NCBI GenBank assembly: GCA_913052485.1
Contig: CAJXDN010000001.1
Location: 128,444-192,443, forward strand
From: an uncultured Flammeovirgaceae bacterium
GTDB lineage: Bacteria; Bacteroidota; Bacteroidia; Cytophagales; MED-G16
Direction of reading: 5' to 3'
Length of the DNA stretch: 64,000 bases
Position numbers and translations under genes: made by a program. Numbering within the stretch: position 1 is the stretch's first letter; each line of letters starts with the position of its first letter. Of this stretch, positions 15,587 through 18,692 are shown piece after piece. A model generated the notes under the pieces. That model saw nothing but the letters and a program-made list of their open reading frames with translations, was not told the DNA's origin and did not search any database.

Positions 15587-16900
15587 TTAAACTAAAATTT
15601 TAATTGGATCTTCAATAAGTTCCTTTAATGTCTGGAGGAATGATGCTCCCAATGCACCATCTACAATCCTGTGATCACATGAAAGTGTTACTTTCATTAT
15701 GTTACCAGGTACTATGTCTCCATTTTTTATAATTGGAGTATTTTTAATTCCTCCTACAGCTAGTATACAAGAGTCATTCGGATTAATAATAGCAGTAAAC
15801 TCATCTATGCCAAACATACCAAGATTAGATATAGTAAAGGTATTTCCTTCCCATTCAGAGGGTTGGAGTTGTTTGTTTTTAGCCTTATTTGCGAGCATTT
15901 TAACTTCTGTTGAAATGTGAGATAGTGACTTATTATCTGCAAATTTTATAACTGGTACAAGTAATCCCTCATCTACTGCGACAGCAACACCAATGTGGAC
16001 ATGATTATTTACTCTTATTTTATCTGTTAAAAAACTAGCATTAACCATCGGATGTTTTCTTAAAGCGACGGCGCACGCCTTTAAAATTATGTCATTGAAA
16101 GAGATTTTTATTTCAGAAGTTTCATTAATTTTTTTTCTACCTTCCATACAATTATCCATATTAATCTCCATGGTAAGATAGAAGTGAGGAGCAGAAAACT
16201 TACTCTCAGCTAATCTCTTTGAAATAGTTTTTCTCATTTGAGATACAGGAATTTCTTCATAAGATTCCTCTGAATATATAGTAGGTAGAGTAATCTCTTT
16301 TGTTTTGGATTCTGATTCTGAAGGTTTTATATCAGAATAATTTTCAATATCCTGTTTTATTATCCTTCCACCATCTCCACTTCCTTTTATATTTGATAAA
16401 CTTATGCCTTTTTCATCTGCTAGTTTTTTTGCTAAAGGTGATGCTTTTACTCTAGAATCACTTAGGTCAGAATCGTTTGATGAGTCTTCTATGGTTTTAT
16501 CTTCTTCCCCATCACCTTCATCGAAAGATGTTTCAATATTCTCTTTATGAATTTCAGTTTCCTCTGGTGTATCATCAGGTTGAAAATTCTCTTCAGGTTT
16601 AGGATCGTCTTCCTCAGAAGAATTATTTTCTAATTCCTCCAAGATTGATTTTACATTTTCGTCTTTCTCACCTATTATTGCTATGACTCCATCAACAGGA
16701 ACTGAATCACCATCTTTCACCCCTATATGGAGCAATGTTCCGTCATCATAGGATTCTAATTCCATTGTTGCCTTATCTGTCTCGACTTCTGCTAATATGT
16801 CACCAGACTTAACATCGTCTCCAACTTTTTTAAGCCAAGTAGCAATTACGCCCTCTTCCATTGTATCACTCATCTTGGGCATTCTGATAATTTCAGCCAT
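15587..16900 (-). CDS. pdhC: Pyruvate dehydrogenase complex E2, dihydrolipoamide acetyltransferase
   Basis: A 437-residue E2 that transfers acetyl groups from lipoyl-lysine to CoA. Domain order: one lipoyl domain (1-80) with the modified Lys in [11 protein letters not shown]; a long acidic linker (about 85-150, rich in Glu, Asp and Ser); a peripheral E1/E3-binding domain ([21 protein letters not shown] to GRIIKQDI); and the catalytic core ending in [14 protein letters not shown], which carries the active-site His and Asp. With a single lipoyl domain it is shorter than the two-lipoyl E2 proteins of several relatives. E1 and E3 genes are not in the window. A TAAATTTG box at 16922-16915, 14 bases before the ATG, may be its -7 promoter element. 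Confidence 0.93.
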
Positions 16901-16974: not shown

Positions 16975-17667
16975 ATGATCAACAGATATACATTAAAAAA
17001 TATGGACTATTTAATAAGTTCATTTAATATAAGTGAAGAATTACATTTACCAATTTATAATGCTTTCCCGACTAGAAAGTTACCAGTAATTACACTAAAT
17101 AATTCAAAAAATATAACTTATGAAAATTGGGGGTCTACGAGTAAATACTCTAAAAATAATAATTTACCAAATCGATTGATTAATGTTAGCCTATCTAAAA
17201 TTATAAGGAGTAATATATATCTCAATCAATTTAAAACTGAAAGATGCCTAATTCCCTGTGACGGATTTTTCTTATGGAAAAATTATTTCTCAAAAAATAA
17301 AACCCCATTCTATTTTGAATATATTAAAGAGAAATTAATTTATTGTGTTGGAATAAGGGACTCTTTTCAGGATTTTGACGGAAAAAATTTTAATTTTTTT
17401 TATTTTATAACCGAACCTTCAAGCGGAAGATGGCGAAATTTTACTTCTAGTCTTCCTGTTACTTTTGATATGAGGTATTATGATATATGGTTAGATAAAA
17501 AATCAAATCTTAAAAAAATCAAACCCTTCACAAATAAATTAAAATATGAAGACCTTAAAGGGTTTTCTGTATCTCCTTATTTTAACGATAATAATAAAGA
17601 CGACCAAAGCTTAGTAAAACCTATTAAAAGTTTAAATCAATATGGAAATTATTCTCTTTTTGATTAA
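16975..17667 (+). CDS. SRAP (YedK/HMCES) family protein lacking the catalytic residues
   Basis: A 230-residue protein of normal SRAP length. Family landmarks align well: KLPVITLNN (35-43), the WG pair (52-53), RCLIPCDGFFLW (90-101), PVTF (161-164), WLD (172-174) and the C-terminal SLVKPI. Active SRAP proteins form a thiazolidine crosslink to abasic sites through Cys2, aided by Asn, Arg, Glu105 and His160 (YedK numbering). Here residue 2 is Ile (MINRY), the Asn is kept (Asn70) but its partner Arg is Ser72, the Glu of DGFxEW is Leu100, and the His of the HxRxP segment is Thr157. An upstream ATG at 16970 stops after two codons, so no Cys2-bearing start exists. It is probably a DNA-binding pseudoenzyme. 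fabH follows after 17 bases. Confidence 0.75.
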   Translation: MINRYTLKNMDYLISSFNISEELHLPIYNAFPTRKLPVITLNNSKNITYENWGSTSKYSKNNNLPNRLINVSLSKIIRSNIYLNQFKTERCLIPCDGFFLWKNYFSKNKTPFYFEYIKEKLIYCVGIRDSFQDFDGKNFNFFYFITEPSSGRWRNFTSSLPVTFDMRYYDIWLDKKSNLKKIKPFTNKLKYEDLKGFSVSPYFNDNNKDDQSLVKPIKSLNQYGNYSLFD

Positions 17668-17684
17668 GAAAAAAAGACATACTT

Positions 17685-18692
17685 TTGAAAGTGATTAATT
17701 CAAAAATATCAGGTGTTGGATATTTTGTTCCAGATAATGTTGTGAAAAACTCACATCTTGAAAAGATAATGAATACAACAGATGAATGGATAAGAGAGAG
17801 AACAGGTATTGAGGAAAGAAGATGGGTTAACGACCAAAAATTGACGACATCATTAATGGGAACTTATGCTGCAGAAAATGCGATATTAGATGCTGGTATA
17901 CAAAGAGATGATATTGATTTTATCATATTCTCAACATTGAGTCCAGACTATTACTTCCCAGGTTCTGGTGTCTTACTTCAGAGAAATTTAAAAATTAAAG
18001 AAATTGGTGCTTTAGATGTAAGAAATCAATGTTCAGGATTTATTTATGGACTATCAATAGCGGATCAGTACATCAAATCAGGTATGTATAAAAACATACT
18101 TGTTGTTGGTAGTGAGATCCATTCAGGTGGTTTAGATAAAACACCAAGAGGCCGTGCAGTATCTGTAATTTTTGGTGATGGAGCAGGAGCAGCAGTTATT
18201 TCTGCAACTAATGAAGATGAAGGTATTTTATCAACTCATCTTCATTCCGAGGGTAAATTTGCTGAGGAATTAGCCCTAATAAAACCTGCTACTACCTTCT
18301 GGATAGATAAAATTATTGACGATGAGAATGAGGACGGTTCCGGGTATTCGCCCGTAATGAATGGTAATTTTGTTTTTAAGAATGCAGTTATTCGTTTTGA
18401 GGAGGTAATTTTTGAAGCTCTAAATTACTCAAATTTGAAACCTGAAGATATTTCTCTTCTAATTCCTCACCAAGCGAATTTGAGAATTTCTCAATTTATT
18501 CAGAAGAGACTGGGCCTTGATGACGATCAAGTTTTTAATAACATTATGAAGTATGGTAATACAACTGCCGCATCAATTCCAATAGCTTTAAAAGAGGCAA
18601 TGGATAATAAAAAACTAAAAAAAGGTGATATATTATGTCTAGCAGCATTTGGAAGTGGTTTTACCTGGGCTTCCGCATTAATTAAATGGTGA
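17685..18692 (+). CDS. fabH: 3-oxoacyl-ACP synthase III (FabH-type)
   Basis: A 335-residue thiolase-fold enzyme that condenses acyl-CoA with malonyl-ACP to begin fatty acid synthesis. The triad is complete: Cys116 in RNQCSGFIYG, the His of IPHQANLRI and the Asn of KYGNTTAASIP. TTDEWIRERTGIEERRW near the N-terminus is typical. An extended loop (FWIDKIIDDENEDGSGYSP) precedes the C-terminal half, as in several FabH-like proteins of Bacteroidota, so a role in a side pathway rather than bulk fatty acid synthesis is possible. The start is TTG 17685 or GTG 17691; both keep the first strand. It overlaps the next gene by 7 bases. Confidence 0.88.
   Translation: MKVINSKISGVGYFVPDNVVKNSHLEKIMNTTDEWIRERTGIEERRWVNDQKLTTSLMGTYAAENAILDAGIQRDDIDFIIFSTLSPDYYFPGSGVLLQRNLKIKEIGALDVRNQCSGFIYGLSIADQYIKSGMYKNILVVGSEIHSGGLDKTPRGRAVSVIFGDGAGAAVISATNEDEGILSTHLHSEGKFAEELALIKPATTFWIDKIIDDENEDGSGYSPVMNGNFVFKNAVIRFEEVIFEALNYSNLKPEDISLLIPHQANLRISQFIQKRLGLDDDQVFNNIMKYGNTTAASIPIALKEAMDNKKLKKGDILCLAAFGSGFTWASALIKW

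Follow-up and report, generated by a model that had tools for sequence, protein, structure and literature searches.

A clade of Cytophagales SRAP-fold proteins without the abasic-site cross-linking centre, and a possible role for its conserved C-terminal tail

Results

Identity and active-site residues of the SRAP protein

The window, a 64,000-nucleotide stretch of contig CAJXDN010000001.1 from an uncultured Flammeovirgaceae bacterium, carries a gene for an SRAP-fold protein that lies between genes of the pdhC and fabH types (Table 1). The protein matched the SRAP profile PF02586 with 96.7 bits (E 1.8e-27; gathering cut-off 27.1). Residues were assigned by aligning it to YedK of Escherichia coli K-12 and to intact Bacteroidota SRAPs. 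YedK H160 and R162, the His and Arg of the HxR motif, corresponded to Thr157 and Ser159, and the active-site Asn of the NxR motif was present as Asn70 (Ser in genus g2). The pocket Arg of both motifs was missing, with Ser72 and Ser159 in their places. A sequence-only reading of this DNA had named Ile2, Ser72, Leu100 and Thr157; these residues and their coordinates were all correct, and the loss of the HxR Arg at Ser159 is additional. No Met-Cys was present in the upstream in-frame extension (...ENYYFYEMIN) of the open reading frame, and all family members agreed on Ile or Val at position 2, so that an alternative start or a frameshift restoring Met-Cys was rejected. In YedK, no cross-link forms without the Cys2 side chain, and Glu105 ranks next in importance (PMC9436759). 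The alignment confirms the window protein as an SRAP fold with an erased Cys2/Glu/His centre; a protein with these residues is predicted to be incapable of thiazolidine cross-linking at abasic sites.

Table 1. Coordinates of the SRAP gene, its altered motifs and its neighbours in the window
Feature	Position	Strand	Basis
SRAP-fold pseudoenzyme gene	16975..17667	+	230 amino acids plus stop, ATG start; PF02586 match; AlphaFold2 model resembles SRAP structures
Codon 2, Ile replacing the nucleophile Cys2	16978..16980	+	YedK alignment; Ile/Val in all family members
N70-V71-S72, former N-x-R motif, Arg lost and Asn retained	17182..17190	+	Alignment; position 72 is D/E/S in 12 of 12 family rows
Codon 100, Leu replacing the catalytic Glu (YedK Glu105)	17272..17274	+	Alignment
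T157-S158-S159, former H-x-R motif, His and Arg both lost	17443..17451	+	Alignment
C-terminal tail, residues 217-230, ending NQYGNYSLFD	17623..17664	+	Predicted disordered, conserved; resembles a beta-clamp-binding motif
pdhC-type dihydrolipoamide acyltransferase, conserved left neighbour (context)	15587..16900	-	Synteny in the family and in outside kin
fabH-type ketoacyl-ACP synthase, conserved right neighbour (context)	17685..18692	+	Synteny

An AlphaFold2 model of the window protein, built from an input of 16 family sequences, had a mean predicted local distance difference test score (pLDDT) of 77.8 and a predicted template modelling score of 0.77; pLDDT was below 50 at residues 217-230. 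All confident Foldseek matches of the model were SRAP structures, BT_1218, YedK and HMCES among them, at E values of 2e-12 to 1e-7. The top match was BT_1218 of Bacteroides thetaiotaomicron (PDB 2f20), followed by YedK with DNA. Among solved structures BT_1218 was the best match in both structure and sequence, and its phmmer alignment spanned residues 34-226 of the chain. The SRAP domain of human HMCES shared the fold (E 5e-10 to 2e-9); unlike the window protein, HMCES is catalytically active. YedK, which cross-links to abasic sites, also shared the fold (E down to 8e-12) at 16% identity; unlike the window protein it has Cys2, Arg77, Glu105, His160 and Arg162, and it has no C-terminal Leu-Phe (LF) tail. 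Asn75 is also present in YedK. In the predicted structure the SRAP (BB1717-like) fold is retained. The SRAP scaffold seen in the earlier reading was borne out by the profile score and by these structural matches.

Presence and selection in the window family

The window family was represented by 15 genomes in three genera, each with exactly one SRAP. All 15 proteins were degenerate, and residue 2 was Ile or Val in each. No canonical SRAP copy was found in any of these genomes (completeness 54-93%); at such completeness a missing copy is weak evidence for any single genome, yet the result was repeated in all 15. The degenerate gene was present in independent assemblies from several projects. The records were labeled uncultured Marinoscillum sp., Flammeovirgaceae bacterium, Rhodothermaeota bacterium MED-G19 and Cytophagales bacterium, and since these labels are mutually inconsistent, the group is called here only a marine Cytophagales-related family.

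The ratio of nonsynonymous to synonymous substitution rates (dN/dS) was estimated pairwise. By the Nei-Gojobori method (NG86), six pairs from the window family gave 0.100, 0.120, 0.127, 0.134, 0.220 and 0.226, and two pairs from other degenerate genera gave 0.033 and 0.125. For the pairs that yielded a value, estimates by the Yang-Nielsen method (YN00) were 0.022-0.133. The values are rough because dS was near or above 1 in several pairs; all were nonetheless far below 1, as purifying selection on the gene would produce. The earlier suggestion of a maintained pseudoenzyme rather than a decaying gene is upheld by the intact frame, the low dN/dS and the presence of the gene in 15 of 15 genomes. 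The checks proposed with it were also answered: Ile or Val occupied position 2 in all 15 family genomes, the ratios were below 1, and no second copy was found in these incomplete genomes.

A degenerate clade across the order

In a survey of 391 genomes of the order, a profile made from degenerate sequences, which also recovers intact SRAPs, matched in 282; proteins were read from a subset of the matched loci. A maximum-likelihood tree was built from 92 of these proteins after the four catalytic columns (Cys2, Asn, Glu, His) had been removed. Forty-eight degenerate SRAPs (families f1, f5 and f19, plus the protein of locus L091), including that of the window, formed one clade with a bootstrap of 98 and a Shimodaira-Hasegawa-like approximate likelihood ratio test (SH-aLRT) value of 96. 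Exceptions within the 48 rows were L111, which retained Glu, and four f5 proteins, which retained Cys2. The sister of this clade was a group of 15 f19 proteins (100/99), nearly all intact (MCGRY) and with the same C-terminal tail; the joint group was supported at 100/100. At least four changes between the intact and degenerate states were needed on the tree. The window protein, which the earlier reading had treated as a single odd protein, is instead a member of a clade that extends across three families of the order.

Residue 2 in the clade was I, V, Y, G, F, L, P, Q or C. Cys2, Glu and His were lost or mixed among 47 degenerate proteins, as were Ala71, Arg159 and other residues that are near-fixed in intact SRAPs. 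W52, G53, P32, N29, R90, P161 and W172 were retained in 100% of the 47; W101 and, usually, R4 were retained as well. These residue patterns and the tree make it well supported that the window SRAP belongs to a real, maintained pseudoenzyme clade that has lost catalysis.

Two other readings were rejected. A tree that united the intact f19 copies with the degenerate ones and left f1 and f5 outside was rejected by the approximately unbiased test (p 6e-5), a value to be read with caution because the tested group was named after the tree had been seen and long branches are involved. Clade-wide backup by an intact paralogue held for the surveyed f5 genomes, which had both copies, but not for f1 or for many complete f19 genomes with a single match.

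Other altered SRAPs were seen outside the clade. L096 and L097 (genomes G374 and G377) fall within the intact f19 group and encode MCERY proteins that kept Cys2 and had Ala or Gly for Glu and His, an apparent separate loss. L012 (G040) begins MPGRY and is altered at the N-terminus only (Pro2), with Asn, Glu and His intact. L141 (G059) begins MASRY, an altered N-terminus with Glu intact; the L134/L141 group is a separate case on the tree. Family f43, from another class of the phylum, holds a second, separate degenerate group without the LF tail (L185, L187, L189-L195 and L197). Its motifs were M-S-D-R-[YF]; [N/H/K]-G-[FY]-Y-K-W, where Lys replaces Glu; and V-[DG]-[DN]-[RK]-M-P, where Asp or Gly replaces His. 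In at least one of G763, G482 and G622 a canonical MCGRY copy stood alongside the degenerate f43 copy, both loci having been read.

The conserved C-terminal tail

The best-conserved element of the degenerate proteins was the tail motif Q-x-G-N-[YLF]-x-L-F, which the earlier reading had not mentioned. All 47 degenerate homologues had Q222, G224, L228 and F229, and N225 was conserved in 96%. A tail that is predicted to be disordered and is yet conserved would be typical of a short binding motif. LF occurred within the last five residues in all 47 degenerate proteins and in 34 of 45 intact Cytophagales SRAPs, the latter being related sequences and not independent events, versus 2 of 276 other proteins of the same loci. 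Some intact SRAPs, like YedK, had no LF tail extension.

The consensus for binding to the beta sliding clamp (DnaN) is QL[S/D]LF, revised to Q-aliphatic-x-[L/M]-[F/L] (PMC13254535). Several intact relatives ended in QQLSLF, QLDLF, QGSLF or QGDLF, near this consensus. The window tail, NYSLF, fitted it less well than these relatives, having S-L-F but Asn in place of Gln and Tyr in place of the aliphatic residue. UmuC of the window family carried NQVQLSLFD or NQVQLNLFD, which resembles the SRAP tail NQYGNYSLFD. An internal QLSLFD, QLNLFD or QLSIFD motif was observed in the family's UmuC-like polymerase at L154-L161. The clamp pattern had QVMLL as its sole match in DnaE of the window, which was uninformative. 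Judged by its motif, the beta clamp is the most likely target of the tail, an assignment that stands at about an even chance.

Locus and orthology

In 14 loci of the window family read at length, the SRAP gene adjoined the pdhC-type and fabH-type genes wherever the contig extended that far. The same neighbours flanked the degenerate copy in L091 and in f19 genus g72, and hslV-pdhC flanked it in g97 and g99. Intact f19 SRAPs also lay between pdhC and fabH; there, an alpha/beta hydrolase gene separated SRAP from pdhC. This common position makes the window gene a positional orthologue of the intact SRAP gene. The degenerate copies of f5 and of some f19 genera sat outside the pdhC/fabH locus.

The intact f19 sister SRAPs share length, fold, C-terminal tail and genomic position with the window protein. 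They differ from it in that the catalytic residues Cys2, Glu and His and the Arg of HxR are present (MCGRY, NAK/NAR, DGFYEW, HDRMP; tail DQFGNYTLFG).

The hydrolase gene (Abhydrolase_1; 6966-7976 in L091) was found directly upstream of SRAP in many relatives (L091, L010, L059, L061, L062, L066, L071, L073, L209-L211, L213, L216 and L217) and was missing there in the window family. It encodes what we take, by reading, to be a YheT-like protein.

Discussion

The best explanation for these observations is that an ancestor had already lost the Cys2/Glu/His centre and that the window gene would descend from it. The tail may dock on the beta clamp, and a docked tail would hold the SRAP body at replication or repair sites. 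Held there, the body could act non-covalently, either by serving as a bound scaffold or by competing for the clamp pocket. On sequence grounds, we consider a clamp-tethered, non-catalytic factor a plausible role for this SRAP pseudoenzyme, the case for and against it being evenly poised. Human HMCES would also carry a C-terminal PCNA-interacting motif, although the literature searched gave no confirmation of it.

Several observations weigh against this role. The tails of the window clade (NYSLF, NLTLF) are off the clamp consensus, with Asn at the Q1 position and Tyr or Leu at the aliphatic position, and the invariant Q222 lies three residues upstream of the Q1 position. The intact SRAPs with LF tails, as noted, are related to one another. 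No gene among the SRAP neighbours points to repair or replication. SRAP identity within the window family was 34-67%, compared with about 70-90% for most neighbours; the gene evolves faster than its neighbours, and the constraint on it is moderate.

A binder of single-stranded DNA or of junctions between single- and double-stranded DNA, shielding damaged DNA without a cross-link, is an unlikely alternative. The SRAP fold, W52-G53, R90, W101, P161 and usually R4 are retained, and active-site mutants of YedK still bind DNA (PMC9436759). However, both conserved DNA-pocket Arg, of NxR and HxR, are lost in the window protein, and at position 72 all family rows have Asp, Glu or Ser and none a basic residue, so that a negative or neutral residue stands where a DNA-contacting Arg sat. 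Position 159 is mixed in the window family (K, R, S, N, T, Y, Q), and 6 of 12 rows still have Lys or Arg there, which leaves room for DNA binding. The junction binding suggested in the sequence-only reading is weakened by the loss of the pocket Arg and by the acidic residue or Ser at position 72 throughout the family.

The protein might instead regulate a Y-family polymerase as one of its subunits, a role proposed for a group of SRAP-related proteins linked to UmuC-like polymerases (PMC12926913). Those proteins resemble the window clade in being related to SRAP and in their proposed role as non-catalytic partners, and the two groups may overlap; they differ in that they are linked to umuC, and no such linkage was seen for the window clade at the loci read. 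A Y-family polymerase was present in 8 of 15 genomes of the window family. All 15 genomes have the pseudo-SRAP, however, and no polymerase was found in G013 (92% complete) or G011 (87%). The SRAP gene was not near umuC in any locus read, and in four loci inspected UmuC overlapped its own UmuD-sized gene of 142 amino acids, which by reading alone we take to be umuD. A polymerase subunit is improbable on this evidence.

It is still less probable that a different chemistry was acquired, either through Cys95 (17257-17259) and Cys124 (17344-17346) or through the N-terminal amine. Both Cys are invariant in 12 of 12 rows of the window family and are mostly Ala and Phe, respectively, in intact SRAPs. 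The rest of the clade has no Cys124 and mostly no Cys95, however, which makes them at most a family-specific addition. Met1 is expected to remain before Ile, given the specificity of methionine aminopeptidase, and this counts against amine chemistry. An SRAP with the C2A change does retain amine-based lyase activity (PMC9436759), but the amine route needs Glu105, which is lost here. Finally, a decaying pseudogene or an assembly artefact, which the faster evolution of the gene and the origin of one family member in a set of metagenome-assembled genomes of low completeness might suggest, is hardly credible, since the frame is intact in all 15 genomes, dN/dS is well below 1, independent assemblies show identical residue losses and the tail is invariant.

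The SRAP Cys has been described as "absolutely conserved" and always the second residue (PMC3765255), and as invariant (PMC9436759). No prior description of the degenerate clade was found in the literature searched, which left out most subscription papers, so that an earlier report is possible. A clade without Cys2 that supplies the sole SRAP of many genomes means that there are natural SRAPs predicted to be unable to protect abasic sites covalently. Such proteins would be natural separation-of-function variants, and the sister group, which shares their gene position and tail but retains its catalytic centre, permits a direct comparison.

For the Bacteroidota as a whole, a more tentative proposal, which we regard as possible rather than probable, is that the ancestral and more durable role of the SRAP orthologue is independent of catalysis and is exerted through a clamp-docking tail. 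The abasic-site chemistry would then have been dispensable: it would have disappeared across the clade, many of whose genomes have no intact stand-in, and a few other lineages would have lost it independently. If the tail does bind the clamp, recruitment to the replication machinery would seem to be a core part of SRAP function in bacteria alongside the chemistry.
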